Below are positions 5,757 through 17,053 of a stretch of DNA of 32,766 nt, in pieces (positions within the stretch are counted from its first letter, which is position 1; each line of letters begins with the position of its first letter). The notes below the pieces were generated by a model that ran no database searches, was not told the origin of the DNA, and worked only from the letters and a program-made list of their open reading frames with translations. The translations under genes and the position numbers were made by a program. The stretch spans positions 1 to 32,766 of the forward strand of contig SCKK01000041.1 in the NCBI GenBank assembly GCA_004124475.1, written 5' to 3'. Origin of the DNA: Fidelibacterota bacterium (GTDB taxonomy: Bacteria > Fidelibacterota > Marinisomatia > Marinisomatales > SCKK01).

Positions 5757-6686
5757 ATGACTTACAATATTATCAAAGAAAAGCTTTCAACCGGCAAACC
5801 TGTTATGCTGGACGGTGGTATTGGAACTGAAGTACTACGCCGCGGCGTCCGCTGGCGTCAGCACGGCATCAAAGATGCACCGGGTGTAATTCGTGATATT
5901 CATTTAGACTATCTAAAAGCTGGGGTTGATGTTCTTACCACCCACACATTTAATTTGACCAAGCGTAACTTTATCAACTTCTTCCGGGATACAGATCATA
6001 TGGCCTTAATTGGTGCCGCCGGTCTTAACACGAAAGCAATGGAATTGTGCCACGCTGCAGTGTATTTAGCTAAAGAAGCATTAGCAGAGTCAGGCAAGGC
6101 AGAGAAGGTACCACTGGCTGGTTCCATTGCACCTGTTATGCATTTATTCCGTCCTGATCTTTCACCATCTGAAGACGATTGTCTAACTCATCATAGAGAG
6201 TGTGTAGAGATTCTCTCAGATTGTGGTGTTGACCTTATCTTTTTTGAAGGCATGAATAACACCAGGGAGGCAAAGGCGGCCCTGCAGGCGGCCGCAGGGT
6301 TCGATCTGCCTGTGTGGATGAGTTTTGTTCCTGGTATAGATGGTAATCTGTTAAGTGGTGAATCGCTCCTAGATGCGGCGGATCTTGCCCGCAGCCAGGG
6401 TGCTGAAGCAGTTCTCGTTTCCGCTGCGAGTTTACCCATGATAATGAAAAGTCTACCCAATATTATTAATGGATCACCGTGCGGCGCCAAGGCTATCATT
6501 GGCAGATACAGCCCACCAAGCTGGAAGCCTGACTTTTATCCCAATTTCGTAGACACCGATGAAGTATCACCGGAAAAATATGCTCAGGAAGTAAATATCT
6601 GGTTGGATCAGGGTGTTCAGATCGTGGGTGGTTCCAGTGGAACAACACCTGAACATATCCGCGCTATGCGGGGAATGATAGGTTAA
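5757..6686 (+). CDS. Homocysteine S-methyltransferase paralogue lacking the zinc cysteines
   Basis: 309 residues of the homocysteine S-methyltransferase (Pfam S-methyl_trans) TIM barrel, with the opening motif MLDGGIGTEVLRRG at 17-30. The neighbouring paralogue carries the three canonical zinc ligands (as human BHMT C217, C299, C300). Here they read A224, S293 and S294: VSAAS replaces LNCAP and GGSSGTTP replaces GGCCGTTP. Without zinc the usual thiolate activation of homocysteine should not work, so it may be a partner or regulator of the next gene product, or an enzyme on a different substrate. The frame is intact and the length normal, which argues against simple decay. It is the first gene of a two-gene operon; the next start is four bases after its stop. 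Confidence 0.85.
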   Translation: MTYNIIKEKLSTGKPVMLDGGIGTEVLRRGVRWRQHGIKDAPGVIRDIHLDYLKAGVDVLTTHTFNLTKRNFINFFRDTDHMALIGAAGLNTKAMELCHAAVYLAKEALAESGKAEKVPLAGSIAPVMHLFRPDLSPSEDDCLTHHRECVEILSDCGVDLIFFEGMNNTREAKAALQAAAGFDLPVWMSFVPGIDGNLLSGESLLDAADLARSQGAEAVLVSAASLPMIMKSLPNIINGSPCGAKAIIGRYSPPSWKPDFYPNFVDTDEVSPEKYAQEVNIWLDQGVQIVGGSSGTTPEHIRAMRGMIG

Positions 6687-6690
6687 AGCC

Positions 6691-7599
6691 ATGAGCTATA
6701 AAGAATTAAAAAACAGAATAGATGCCCAGCAGGTAACGTTTCTTGATGGTGGCATTGGCACAGAGATACTACGTCGGGGCTACACTTGGGCCAGTCACCA
6801 GTTAAAAAGTGAACCGGAATTGAATCTGGAGATTCACCAGGATTACATAAATGCAGGTGCAGACGTGATCACCACGAACACCTTTCAACTCAGCAAACGC
6901 AGCTTTCGAAATCATTTCGCTAATGATGAACACCTGGCAGCTATTGGTGCCCGGGGGCTAATGGATCGGGCTGGTGAATTAATTCATGAATCGGTTGCCC
7001 TGGCGGATAAAGCGCGCCGCTCACTTGATCATAATGACACTCTGATTGCCGCTTCTATTACCACCCTGGAGTGGTGTTTTAGGCCGGACCGCAGCCCGGA
7101 TGTTGAAGAAATATATGACGAATATTTGGAAGAGTTGACAGACTATGCCGATGCCGGCGCCGATATTTTCCTGTTTGAGACATTCAATTCAACCCCGGAA
7201 GCAGAGGTGGCAATCAAGGCTGCAAAAAAAATCGGCAAACCAGCATGGGTAGCCTTTGTGCCCTATCAGGACGGCTGCCTTCTGGGAGGCCAGTCCATGG
7301 CGGAGGTGGCAGATGCCATGGCCCGCAACGAACCGGATGTACTTTTGTTAAACTGTGCTCCGCCTGATCATATCACTGCAGGTCTGGAGCAGCTGGCACC
7401 GTTGTGGGACAAACCTTTAGGCGTTTATGCCCACGTGGGAAAATTCAATCCCCCCGAATGGCAGTTTACCGATGAATATAATGCGGATCGGCATCTGCAG
7501 GAATGCAAGCACTGGCATGATCTTGGTGCGACAGTTATTGGGGGCTGTTGTGGAACAACGCCGGACTATATTAAAAAACTGACTCAGTTTTTTCGCTGA
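6691..7599 (+). CDS. Homocysteine S-methyltransferase family protein (zinc ligands intact)
   Basis: 302 residues, a paralogue of the preceding gene with the same opening motif (FLDGGIGTEILRRG). Zinc-binding cysteines are present: C222 in LLNCAPPDH, and C286 and C287 in GGCCGTTPDYI. The family moves a methyl group from a donor (betaine, S-methylmethionine, a folate or a corrinoid) to homocysteine to make methionine. The donor cannot be read from sequence alone; the single-domain length fits BHMT/MmuM-like enzymes rather than full-length MetH. The adjacent convergent operon of amine-oxidising and aminomethyl-transferring enzymes suggests a methyl group derived from a methylated amine or amino acid. 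Confidence 0.9.
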   Translation: MSYKELKNRIDAQQVTFLDGGIGTEILRRGYTWASHQLKSEPELNLEIHQDYINAGADVITTNTFQLSKRSFRNHFANDEHLAAIGARGLMDRAGELIHESVALADKARRSLDHNDTLIAASITTLEWCFRPDRSPDVEEIYDEYLEELTDYADAGADIFLFETFNSTPEAEVAIKAAKKIGKPAWVAFVPYQDGCLLGGQSMAEVADAMARNEPDVLLLNCAPPDHITAGLEQLAPLWDKPLGVYAHVGKFNPPEWQFTDEYNADRHLQECKHWHDLGATVIGGCCGTTPDYIKKLTQFFR

Positions 7600-12010: not shown

Positions 12011-12903
12011 GATGCGGATCTAAAAAACGGTCGTGTTAAGCAAGTGGGACCTCCAGCACCTTTCAGGGATATTTCTGTGCCATTATAGGTATGAACTTCT
12101 ACACCCTCCGCTTCCAATCGATCCTGCGTGATGGGGTTGCCTTCAATCATGATACATTTACGCGGCGCTACAGCCAATACATTACAGGCTATGGATTCGT
12201 ATTCTCCATCCGGGACTTCCACCAGTTTGATGCTGCGGTCAATTAAATACTGGCGAAAAGGAACGGGCAGGAGCCGGGAATAAACCAGGTAGAAATCGTG
12301 GTCGATGGGACTCACATTGCTCATCAGGTGCAGGCATTCACCTGGGCCATTCCAGTGGGGCAGCGGAACTGAAATGATGTCGTCAACCAAATCACCAAGT
12401 ATTATCTTAAACTGGCGAATACCCTCCACATTGGTGCGGTAGCCTTCACCAACGGCAACAGTCCGTTCATCAATCCATACCACATCGCCGCCTTCAAGCG
12501 TGCCGGGAGCTTGAATTTGTCCTAAAATGGGAACACCAATTCCATTAAAAAATGTTTCCATTGCTGCCGGTTCGGGTATGCGTTCAGGTTTTCCCATTGT
12601 ACATAAAACTACACCATTATTTGTGATGACACAGGGATCATGGGCATAGATTGAGTCTAGAGAGGTTTCAGCGTCAGATGGTAAATAATGGATTTCTACA
12701 TCGAATGATTGTAAACATTGAACAAATTGATCATAGTCTGACTGTGCTTGGTCAAAATTTGGTTCCGAAATATAATTCAATTGCTTGTATTGGTTAGTGA
12801 TAGTTTCCTGGTTTTGATAAGCATCCTTGGGGTGTTTCAAGAGGACTCGGCGGATGGGATCCACCATGTTCTGGCAGCCGAAATTCTTATTCAATGATCC
12901 CAC
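12007..12903 (-). CDS. Dimethylargininase (DDAH)-like amidinohydrolase
   Basis: 298 residues of the guanidino-modifying superfamily. The early FGCQNMVDPIRRVLLKHP is typical of DDAH proteins. The catalytic triad is complete: E137 in TLEGGDVVW, H192 in GECLHLMS and C288 in GGPTCLTRPF. D89 in YAHDP is a likely guanidinium contact. Such enzymes hydrolyse methylated arginine to citrulline plus methylamine or dimethylamine; related members act on arginine or other guanidines, so the substrate is uncertain. The start codon is GTG at 12903 with no clear ribosome binding site, overlapping the peptidase remnant by 17 bases, so coupling is likely; a TTG at 12894 is the alternative. Confidence 0.87.
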   Translation of the reverse strand: MGSLNKNFGCQNMVDPIRRVLLKHPKDAYQNQETITNQYKQLNYISEPNFDQAQSDYDQFVQCLQSFDVEIHYLPSDAETSLDSIYAHDPCVITNNGVVLCTMGKPERIPEPAAMETFFNGIGVPILGQIQAPGTLEGGDVVWIDERTVAVGEGYRTNVEGIRQFKIILGDLVDDIISVPLPHWNGPGECLHLMSNVSPIDHDFYLVYSRLLPVPFRQYLIDRSIKLVEVPDGEYESIACNVLAVAPRKCIMIEGNPITQDRLEAEGVEVHTYNGTEISLKGAGGPTCLTRPFFRSAS

Positions 12904-13336
12904 ACCAATTTACTATCAGGTTTGCAATCACTTTCACGGTAGTTAATATGTCATCAATTCTAACATATTCGTTGGCTGCATGGGCCCGAATTAAATCGCC
13001 AGGGCCATAAAGAACGGCGGGGATCTTACCATGGTTGGTGAACAGACGTAAGTCAGTACCATTGGTAACTCCTTCAATAATTGGAGCATTGCTCGTTGCC
13101 ATTAAATGGCTTTTTATAAGTGTTTTAATTACATGAGGATCTTTTATCTGATCAAATTGGATGGGGACTTTTTCCACAGCCAGTCCTAGGGACTTTATTT
13201 TATCTGCAATTAATTCTTGAACTGGTCCTTCGTCGTTAGCCAAACTGGGCGCTCGTGCGGCGGATTGTACAAATTCAACAATTTCATCTTTGTGGGCTGA
13301 TACCGCTTGTGAGATTTGGTCTTTGATATTAGTCAT
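12887..13336 (-). pseudogene. M20-family metallopeptidase with large in-frame internal deletion
   Basis: The 149 residues contain only the two ends of an ArgE/DapE-type peptidase. Residues 1-65 match the N-terminus (EIVEFVQSAARAPSL, then VQELIADKIKSLGLAVEKVP). Residues from about 68 match the C-terminus (GVTNGTDLRLFTNHGKIPAV, then YGPGDLIRAHAANEYVRIDD). Family members are about 400-430 residues, so roughly 250-280 residues are missing at a junction near 13140. The lost part includes the HxD and EE zinc/catalytic motifs and the dimerisation domain, so the product cannot be an active peptidase. The reading frame survives the junction. The start overlaps the permease end by eight bases. Confidence 0.85.
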
Positions 13337-14285
13337 GCTTCTTCCAATAATAATAGAGTGGTAATCCAGCCAGAATTATCCCAGCGCCAATGGCTGCATC
13401 CCGGGGGGCTTCTATGATGGTGTTAATGGTTACCAGGACAACGCCTTTTTCTCCCAGGAATATGGAGGCGGAATCAGAAACCACGAAATCGGATGCCCCC
13501 ATGGCGTCAATTCCCAGCGTATAGGTAAATACAAGATTAATTAGCAGATAAATGGAGGTAACGATGAGCATGCAAAAAATGAGGGAAAGGGGAATATTTC
13601 TTCCCGGATTTTTCACTTCACCCACCACGTAGGTGATAAAAATCCAACCGTCATACGTCCACAATACTGATACCATGGCCAGTCCCAAGGGACCTACCAT
13701 ACTGGTTAAGGGTTTATCAAAAATGAAGGGCTGAATATTTTCTATCGAGCCGCCATCCATGACGAGTCCCAGGATAATGATGCCCATAATAGCGCCAATT
13801 TTTGAAAGGGTGAATACATTTTGCGCGCGGGCACCTGCTTTCACATCAATAATATTTAATATAGTGAGTAGAATTACGGAGGTAATAGCAATCCCCTTGA
13901 TTTGCCAATCGGTAAATGGAAAAAAGAAACTAAGGTATTCCGAAAATGCCACGCCGATAGCCGCAATAGTAGCTGTGTTGATCACGGCGATAGCCGACCA
14001 GCCATAGAGATAGCCCCAGACTGGACCATAAGCCTCATTCAGGTAGACAAACTGTCCGCCGGCACGGGGGGCATGGCCGCCCCCAGCTCGGCCACAGACA
14101 AGGCACCAAAAAGGCTGACGATGCCCCCTAGAATCCATACCGTTAAAATTAGTGAAGTTGAAACCGGTGAGCAGGGCCACTGTGGCCGGTACCATGAAAA
14201 TTCCCGAGCCAATGATACCCCCGGTGTTAATCATGGTCGCGTCCAGGAGTGATAAAACCCGTTCCAGTTTCGGTTGTTCAGACAT
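13329..14285 (-). pseudogene. APC-superfamily amino acid permease with compensated frameshifts and internal deletion
   Basis: The family motif GGIIGSGIFMVPATVALLTG opens an L-type-like amino acid transporter and several membrane segments follow. Two lesions are visible. Between about 14163 and 14066 the reading frame is scrambled. A neighbouring frame there encodes the expected second helix (ILTVWILGGIVSLFGALSV), so an extra T near 14163 and two extra C's in the six-base run 14066-14071 add up to three. In addition, residues around 292 jump from GEKGVVLVT to INTIIEAPRDA, the last helix of the family, which means about 130-150 residues are missing near 13430. ATG at 14285 is preferred over the TTG at 14303. 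It heads the operon but is probably inactive. Confidence 0.82.
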
Positions 14286-14739
14286 TGTGCTAGGTTTGAT
14301 CAAGGCGGGATTTGGATTCCCGTCAGACTAAATTTAAGAATTTTCCTGTTGGACAGCATGTACCCCCAGCGGAATTTACAACCTACTGACTGACGCACAA
14401 CAAAAAAACTCCTGTCTCACTAGGACTCTTTTAACAGATAGACTTGGACAGGTTGTCTCTCATTCATCGCCAACGCTCGGTGCGTATGCACTAGTGGATC
14501 ACGAACCCCTTGTACTATCCAGCCTAATTCCCGCTATCGTTTTTGTTATCGCGGTGCTTGAAAGCCGTTGTCAGTGGAGGTGTAGGATGACAGCAGTCGG
14601 CTCGAAACGGTCAATCGGGGTTATGCTGCATTTCTTAATATTAAAAAAGTGACAATACTTCTGCCAGTTCTGCAGGTAAAAGAAGGGGTGAGTTCAGCGT
14701 GGGGTAAGGTGAAGAAACTTCTTTCAGGGGAGGAGAAAC
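14286..14739. other. Gene-free spacer upstream of the permease operon
   Basis: About 450 bases without a convincing reading frame on either strand. A small CGGGA/TCCCG hairpin lies just upstream of the permease start. I found no tRNA-like clover-leaf, group II intron end, riboswitch or recognisable insertion sequence. It may hold decayed sequence. Confidence 0.5.
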
Positions 14740-14916: not shown

Positions 14917-15836
14917 TTGATAACTCACGAAAAATTACAAGAGTTTGAGATAGGACTCGACCCGCCACACATTGATCGGTCAAAATACCAGCTACGGTCC
15001 TGGGTTATGGTGAAATCAGCACAGTATTTCAGATTTATGGTGATAAATCTACTGCCTGCAAACGGATGCCCCTCTTCTCAGATAGATCATCTGCCGAGAA
15101 ATACGCACACAACTATGAGGAATATTGCCAACTCCTTAAACAAGCCGGTTTAACACTACCCTCCGACAGAACCGAAATTGTTGATGTACCAAACCGCCCA
15201 GCAGTTTTCTACATATTGCAAGACCAACTTCCCCCTGATAGATTTTGCCACAAACTCGTTCATTCTTTAAGTAGTAATGAAGTGGAACAGATGATCGAGC
15301 GAGTTGCGGCTGAAATTTCAAAGGTGTGGATATTTAATGAAAGTAACAAACCGAGTAGGAAACTCGCTATCGATGGACAGTTATCAAATTGGGTATTTAC
15401 CGGAGAAGTCAGTGACGGGGATATCTACTACATTGACACCAGCACCCCCTTGTATAGAAAGAACGGTACAGAGCAACTGGATCCTGAATTGTTTCTCAGG
15501 AGCGCACCTTTATTTCTGCGGTGGATAATTCGATGGTTGTTTCTGCAAGATGTCATGAACCGATATTATGATCCACGACTTGTATACATAGATCTTGTTG
15601 CAAATCTTTATAAAGAACAAAGGTCAGATCTTGTTCAGCTGGCGGTAGAGATAGTCAACCGTAGTTTGAGTGGTGAGATTAAGCCACTTTCAGTAGAGGA
15701 AGTTGAGAAGTATTATAAAGAAGATAAGTTTATCTGGATGCTTTTTTTAGTTTTTCGCCGAATGGATAGATGGATTAAGACAAAACTGTTACGACAGCGA
15801 TACGAGTTTATTCTACCGGGAAAAATCAAGCGGTAG
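14917..15836 (+). CDS. DUF6206-like protein with kinase-like motifs, interrupted by one frameshift
   Basis: Two overlapping frames form one protein of about 306 residues. The start (TTG at 14917, ITHEKLQEFEIGLDPPHID) runs to 14988, where one base, probably a C in TACCA, is missing; the next frame continues with PATVLGYGEISTVFQIYGD and then reads to 15836 without a break (ATG at 15066 is inside it). I recall this pattern as the DUF6206 family. By eye it has a protein-kinase-like layout: a glycine-rich loop GYGEIST, a lysine in TACKRM, a catalytic-loop-like DGQLSN (D153/N158) and a metal-site-like Asp in YYIDTSTP (D174). Function is unknown; a small-molecule kinase is possible. Its 3' end overlaps arsM by 11 bases, convergently. 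Confidence 0.75.
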
Positions 15837-16713
15837 CAGAAACAAGTTCAACCTTATCCTTTAAATGTTTTAACCTGTCGGTCGTTACGGTTAAGGGCTT
15901 CGATGCCCGTATCTGTATACTTGCTGCGTATCGACCTGAGAGAGTCCTAATTACTTTCCGAGGTAGTGGTATAAATCTCATTAACTTTTGGATAGTAGGA
16001 TCGTTTTCAGGAAATATTTTATCTACCGAGCGTTCTTGAATAATATCTATTGCTTCAAAACCCGCTGCCTTAATGAGTTCTAAGTAGTTATCTTTAGTTG
16101 ATGCACCCGATATACACCTTACGTACGCCGTAACACTTTTTCGAATAAACCAGGGCAGTTTTCGATATAAGACAATATCTGATACAGCAAGAACTCCTCC
16201 TGGCTTTAATACTCGAAACGCCTCTCGGAAGACCCGTGGTTTTTCCGGAGATAGATTGATAACACAGTTGCTGATAATCGTGTCCACTGAAGCCGATTCC
16301 ACAGGGAGTTCTTCAATATTTCCAAGACGAAAGTCAATATTTGTAGCTCTTACATTTTCCTTGTTATTATTAGCTTTAACGATCATTTCCGGTGTCATAT
16401 CCACTCCAATCACCAAACCATTGGGACCAACTTTCTGAGCAGCTAGGAAACAATCGAACCCGGCTCCACTGCCCAGATCTACTACGGTGTCTCCCGGCTT
16501 TATCTCTTCTAACGCAAGGGGATTCCCGCATCCTAAGCCAAGATTAGCTCCGCTTGGGACTGAATTCAGATCCTCCTTAGAATATCCGATATTCTTGCCA
16601 TATTCATTAACATTAAGTGTCTGATCCCCGCAAGACTCGCAGCAGCCGTTCCCTTCCTGTTGTGGGATCTTGCTGTAATGCTTCTTCACGTTCTCTTTGA
16701 CCTGTGATTTCAT
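15826..16713 (-). CDS. arsM: Arsenite S-adenosylmethyltransferase
   Basis: 295 residues from the ATG at 16713, chosen because GGAGG lies six bases upstream; the ATG at 16719 would touch it. The SAM-binding motif is VVDLGSGAGFDCFLA. The three cysteines conserved in ArsM and used to bind As(III) are all present: C62 in GLGCGNP, C150 in SNCVINLSPEK and C200 in VRCISGA. The protein methylates arsenite to methylated arsenicals using SAM, in the cytosol. An additional CC-x2-C lies near residue 25. The gene follows arsR with a long out-of-frame overlap, so arsenite-responsive control is likely. No arsenic efflux gene is in view. Confidence 0.92.
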   Translation of the reverse strand: MKSQVKENVKKHYSKIPQQEGNGCCESCGDQTLNVNEYGKNIGYSKEDLNSVPSGANLGLGCGNPLALEEIKPGDTVVDLGSGAGFDCFLAAQKVGPNGLVIGVDMTPEMIVKANNNKENVRATNIDFRLGNIEELPVESASVDTIISNCVINLSPEKPRVFREAFRVLKPGGVLAVSDIVLYRKLPWFIRKSVTAYVRCISGASTKDNYLELIKAAGFEAIDIIQERSVDKIFPENDPTIQKLMRFIPLPRKVIRTLSGRYAASIQIRASKPLTVTTDRLKHLKDKVELVSATA

Positions 16714-17053
16714 AATCATCCTCCATTTCTTCTGTTGAACAGCATTGTTCGATTATATTTACAATCGATTGTAAACGATACGCAATATTTTTGTAGTTTA
16801 TTTTATAGTATGTTTCTCTGCCGTTTCTCTTACTCTCAGCAACTCCGGATTTCTTTAACATGGAGAGATGGCGGGAGACGTTTGATTGATTGATATTCAT
16901 CAATTCCGATACCTGGTTAACGGTCATTTCACCCTTTTCCATGAGGAAGAGAAAAACATTGAGGCGACTTTCATCGGTAAAAGCATTGAAAAAATCGTCT
17001 TCTAAAAACCCACGGCACTTTTTCACAAGTTCAGGAGGACAGCAGATTGACAT
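16613..17053 (-). CDS. arsR: ArsR/SmtB-family metalloregulator
   Basis: A winged-helix repressor with the classical pattern DESRLNVFLFLMEKGEMTVN, a recognition helix NQSNVSRHLSMLKKSGV at 68-84 and a beta wing RNGRETYYKIN. Cysteine pairs occur at the N-terminus (CC at 4-5, C13) and near residue 103 (EQCCS), either of which could sense As(III). AGGGA lies eight bases before the ATG. The frame continues about 33 codons beyond the usual end and overlaps arsM out of frame by 101 bases; the tail has no similarity to the family, so the original stop may have been lost. It probably represses its own operon. Confidence 0.88.
   Translation of the reverse strand: MSICCPPELVKKCRGFLEDDFFNAFTDESRLNVFLFLMEKGEMTVNQVSELMNINQSNVSRHLSMLKKSGVAESKRNGRETYYKINYKNIAYRLQSIVNIIEQCCSTEEMEDDYEITGQREREEALQQDPTTGRERLLRVLRGSDT

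Follow-up and report, generated by a model that had tools for sequence, protein, structure and literature searches.

The window (the whole stretch of 32,766 nucleotides that was analysed) encodes a protein that is a member of the homocysteine methyltransferase fold family PF02574 but fails the defining feature of its zinc-dependent enzymes: gene A (positions 5757 to 6686, forward strand) has kept the fold and none of the three cysteines that are the textbook mark of this family. In a genome annotation, A would be labelled a homocysteine methyltransferase; as the three cysteines are lacking, the label of an active enzyme should be withheld from it, and this conserved, co-inherited metal-free twin shows that such annotation can be wrong. 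With regard to its role, we give an even chance to A being a pseudo-subunit without zinc in a heteromer with the product of the adjoining gene B (6691 to 7599, forward strand), which would do the zinc chemistry.

Gene A, gene B and the zinc site

Gene A starts with ATG and encodes 309 amino acids; its assignment is based on the open reading frame, the PF02574 profile (155.5 bits, E 3.5e-45, residues 17-306; curated cut-off 22), the structural model and a structure match, and the full length, the DGGIGTE motif and the barrel ascribed to it in a preliminary description of this DNA are indeed preserved. Four nucleotides (6687 to 6690, forward strand) separate its stop codon from the start of B, the tandem partner downstream, which encodes 302 amino acids, matches PF02574 with 190.5 bits (same cut-off of 22) and shares 37% protein identity with A. 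The scores of A are below every NCBIfam equivalog cut-off (score/cut-off in bits: MmuM 88.4/215, BHMT 73.1/338, PRK08645 98.4/453, MetH 68.8/1010.85); B reached 138.6 bits with the MmuM model (cut-off 215). The source genome, a 3.15 Mb draft assembly, contains two further PF02574 members (a MetH-like one in a 1254-codon open frame and one single copy), both with the three cysteines kept.

By homology, the first zinc ligand of B is Cys222 (7354 to 7356, forward strand), and the second and third are Cys286-Cys287 (7546 to 7551, forward strand), as had been noted for the tandem partner beforehand. The aligned residues of A are A223, S293 and S294: the codons of S222-A223 (6420 to 6425, forward strand) correspond in the alignment to the Asn-Cys of B and other family members, those of S293-S294 (6633 to 6638, forward strand) to the Cys-Cys position. 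Of the equivalents originally proposed for A, S293 and S294 stand, whereas the first substitution is located at A223 and not at A224 (residue 224 is also an alanine). The asparagine preceding the first cysteine is invariant in B and in 10 other aligned PF02574 rows; all 11 A copies have S222 at this position. The triplet at the zinc site reads ASS in eight of the 11 genomes with A, AGS in G016, GSS in G027 and MSS in G191. Among 73 distinct PF02574 sequences (a set mostly from one phylum, with a few acidobacterial-group genomes and the E. coli MmuM, and thus no survey of the whole family), 58 showed the complete CCC signature, i.e. all non-A proteins readable at the three sites have kept the cysteines; the 11 sequences without all three were exactly the A copies, and the remaining four were cut or frame-shifted at the zinc site.

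Occurrence, descent and selection

A profile search detected A in 11 of 245 genomes of the window's phylum, its own genome included, and B in these 11 and no others; neither occurred alone. A precedes B on one strand in all of them, with a stop-start gap of 4 nt in nine genomes, 5 nt in G016 and 3 nt in G191 (in G078 the contig end falls inside B); this short spacing suggests co-translation. A second A-B pair was present in G151 (contig C153; L062/L074), of which A equals that of G081 over 273 codons and diverges afterwards; as it looks like contamination or a chimeric contig, it was treated as a binning contaminant and does not enter the counts, which gives 12 loci in 11 genomes. All genomes carrying the pair are uncultured assemblies.

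Other phyla were covered by a motif scan of genome contigs only, in which copies that deviate from the motifs would go unnoticed: nine of the 10 loci with named relatives of A belonged to Candidatus Neomarinimicrobiota / Marinimicrobia assemblies, and the sole A found without B was that of Acidobacteria bacterium AH-259-G07 (L052, 189-1030), where it is broken in two, with residues ~161-183 missing, in a genome that contains no other PF02574 protein. A draw of 396 genomes from the phylum of G245 yielded four with a match at E 1e-50, only G245 and G524 being of the A/B type; no further A/B pair was present among 41 genomes of the class of G524. Viral contigs contained no relative, plasmids none at E 1e-20, and there was no PHROG match.

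In the maximum likelihood tree (51 rows), A and B, with 13 rows apiece, were each set apart by a branch, and both together formed one clade versus the rest of the tree (support 99/96); the inner order was the same in both, with G524 first, followed by G191, G016, G027 and the others. According to this phylogeny, a single duplication gave rise to A and B as sister clades. The position of G524, which stems from the draw in the phylum of Acidobacteria bacterium AH-259-G07, is informative on the zinc site. Its A-type copy immediately precedes a B-type copy; it is truncated by the end of its contig and contains a frame-shift. The codon of the first cysteine lies in the reading frame, and behind a run of five G, TGC TGC occurs shifted by one frame and continues as CCGTTPRYIELL. 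This copy possesses the loop-7 insertion of A (see below); the shared insertion and its place upstream of B speak for a placement with A. It also grouped with A in the full tree (support 95/83) and with the zinc columns left out (89/73), although in the latter case a grouping with B was not rejected (p-AU 0.175); the cysteines would be ancestral under either placement. As the G524 copy shows the first cysteine within its frame and the two others outside it, the loss of the zinc site in the main A clade is derived. Relatives with cysteines retained in this copy had been named beforehand as evidence against a new role; such a state was encountered in one distant relative only, G524, which makes the loss derived and does not undo it. 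The three-cysteine outgroup, the zinc-free clade and the partner gene always next door constitute a natural series in which the emergence of a pseudoenzyme subunit can be tested.

Between the window and G097, a member of another family, A is 82%, B 96% and the MetH N-domain 62% identical. This higher identity of the pair, together with its patchy distribution within the phylum, suggests that A and B were transferred as a unit.

The dN/dS values (NG86) were calculated for 28 pairs from the eight closest of the 11 genomes only, because wider pairs were saturated at silent sites; they ranged from 0.059 to 0.197 for A (median 0.096) and from 0.039 to 0.160 for B (median 0.057). By these estimates, A is under clear purifying selection that is slightly weaker than that on B, and the relaxed selection on A for which a comparison across relatives had been proposed was not seen.

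Predicted fold, loop 7 and genomic neighbourhood

The AF2 monomer models of both proteins are barrels (A: mean pLDDT 84.4, pTM 0.87; B: mean pLDDT 85.2, pTM 0.87). The best PDB match of A was the Thermotoga MetH structure 1q8a with cadmium and homocysteine (Z 35.3, rmsd 2.0 over 274 residues), followed by further chains of MetH, MmuM and BHMT; the best match beyond the family had a Z of 17.8. Residues D26, W44 and E159 of BHMT, which bind substrate, align with D19, W33 and E164 of A, and these are invariant in the A copies.

An A-specific insertion of eight residues (258-265; 6528 to 6551, forward strand), located by alignment and model in the beta7-alpha7 loop, is nearly invariant: the stretch SWKPDFYP (255-262) is the same in the 11 A copies and the acidobacterial A piece, and one residue differs in G524. 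Residues 252-264 are the only segment of A with pLDDT below 50, and the matching loop of B is of middling confidence (block 251-260, mean pLDDT 55). Near-invariance combined with low confidence in the monomer model is as would be expected of a loop that is ordered by a partner or a ligand.

A convergent island adjoins the pair in four of the 10 loci readable past B (window, G081, G100 and G097). The window's island consists of an amino-acid permease, an M20 deacylase, an arginine deiminase/dimethylargininase-like protein, a GcvT-like protein and two CrtO-like FAD oxidoreductases; the best NCBIfam model of the GcvT-like protein is a trimethylamine-oxide demethylase, with 297.4 bits versus a cut-off of 1100. 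The contig of G097 ends within the GcvT-like gene; G081 has no permease in the stretch read past the pair and contains an additional Rieske ring-hydroxylase-type protein (Rieske oxygenase). At the other loci the neighbours of the pair differ. A functional assignment of the pair from its neighbours was therefore discarded: with an island at only four of 10 loci, the neighbourhood hints at methylated substrates and does not define the pair. The neighbours would fit methylated-compound and methionine metabolism; they do not name the methyl donor.

Several further observations concern the loci themselves. Relative to G100, two genes of the window's island are remnants, the M20 deacylase (12887-13336, reverse strand; residues 67-338 of 423 missing) and the amino-acid permease (13329-14303, reverse strand; about residues 292-402 of 438 missing), i.e. 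the uptake end of the island appears to be in decay, in contrast to the intact genes A and B. Also on the reverse strand of the window (15826-17053), a regulator-like open reading frame overlaps an arsenite-methyltransferase-like one, as judged by eye. A SAM hydroxide adenosyltransferase gene adjoins the A-B pair of G191 on the opposite strand (L075 1777-2673).

Possible roles of A and comparison with known systems

The loss of catalytic residues, the retained fold and selection, and the co-inheritance of a paralogue that bears the site are traits of a pseudo-subunit, and the linkage and short intergenic spacing favour a partner-subunit role. In our reading, A and B go back to a zinc-dependent homocysteine methyltransferase that was duplicated once in tandem; the zinc site of A then disappeared entirely, and both genes have since been kept and moved as a two-gene unit. 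The data show the single origin, the emptied site, the purifying selection, the perfect co-occurrence within the genomes searched, the fixed order and spacing and the retained pocket residues; we infer the heteromer, the regulatory role of A, and the activity of B and its donor. B would bind zinc and methylate homocysteine at the expense of a small methylated donor. A would keep the amino-acid-binding end of the pocket and contact B, probably via its invariant loop-7 insertion, and may stabilise, cap or regulate B via the sensing of homocysteine or methionine. The contact via loop 7 is proposed because loop L7 of BHMT has a role in dimerisation and shapes the active-site cavity (PMC4516251). 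Several points weaken the heteromer: the linkage of A and B would look the same for two enzymes of one pathway, the matching loop of B is likewise modelled with middling confidence only, the pocket residues of A could equally serve a new reaction, and the pair is known from uncultured assemblies only. The alternative statement that A and B are a two-subunit enzyme, whose metal-free half binds homocysteine/methionine or the donor and controls or completes the other site, or else that A is a zinc-free enzyme with a new acceptor, is tentative and falls somewhat short of an even chance.

The main rival, which we consider possible but rather unlikely, is that A became an enzyme in its own right that needs no zinc, belongs to the pathway of B and has a new acceptor or reaction, e.g. 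on a non-thiol methylated amino acid. It would account for the conservation of D19, E25, W33 and E164 in the pocket of A, for H63, N66 and H129 as A-specific invariant polar residues at the strand ends, and for the apparent catabolic island for methylated compounds beside the pair. This island is, however, missing at most other loci, the former metal positions are occupied by small or inert residues (A/G/M, S/G and S) with no obvious catalytic replacement, and to our knowledge no family member works without zinc. That A is instead a ligand-binding regulator, or a methionine/homocysteine-binding protein, with no physical tie to B would agree with an amino-acid end of the pocket that is kept without a catalytic metal site; its perfect linkage to B at a spacing of 3-5 nt argues for stoichiometric co-production, and we regard this reading as improbable. 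Even less credit can be given to the binding of a different metal via other residues under retention of the usual reaction: H63, H129 and C142 are invariant in A, but a relocated site on helix 4 composed of C142, H145, H146 and C149 was rejected, since G191 possesses neither H145 nor C149 and H146 is widespread elsewhere in PF02574, so that this Cys/His cluster is not constant. Finally, a decaying duplicate or an assembly error is barely conceivable: A evolves somewhat faster than B and is broken in one acidobacterial genome, but the 11 full-length orthologues from separate assemblies, with a dN/dS of about 0.1, the same loss in all of them and the constant linkage to B, already contradict it and bear out the original suggestion of a new role rather than decay.

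The pseudo-subunit reading of A would add to the homocysteine methyltransferase family a two-subunit architecture with a metal-free half, which we know from nowhere else in this family. The novelty of a metal-free twin kept by selection is real but modest; its hosts are uncultured marine bacteria in which the turnover of methylated compounds is little known. A literature search that comprised mainly titles and abstracts, with subscription journals mostly outside its scope, retrieved no paper on a metal-less PF02574 member, which is weak evidence of absence. Hetero-oligomers have been proposed for the mammalian paralogues BHMT and BHMT2 (PMC4516251, PMC6010280); in contrast to A and B, both are described as active enzymes with different donors, and a metal-less partner is not described in the accessible parts of these papers. 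A non-catalytic paralogue kept as a pathway regulator is represented by the plant PDX1.2 (PMC6829848); it belongs to another protein family, and the comparison with A is restricted to the putative mode of action. Within its own family, A shares the barrel of the MetH N-terminal module, MmuM and BHMT (Z of 35.3, 32.6 and 31.6, respectively), as well as the aligned pocket residues and the DGG and TTP loops of PF02574 homocysteine S-methyltransferases; unlike these three, it is devoid of the zinc cysteines and the preceding asparagine, but possesses the loop-7 insertion.
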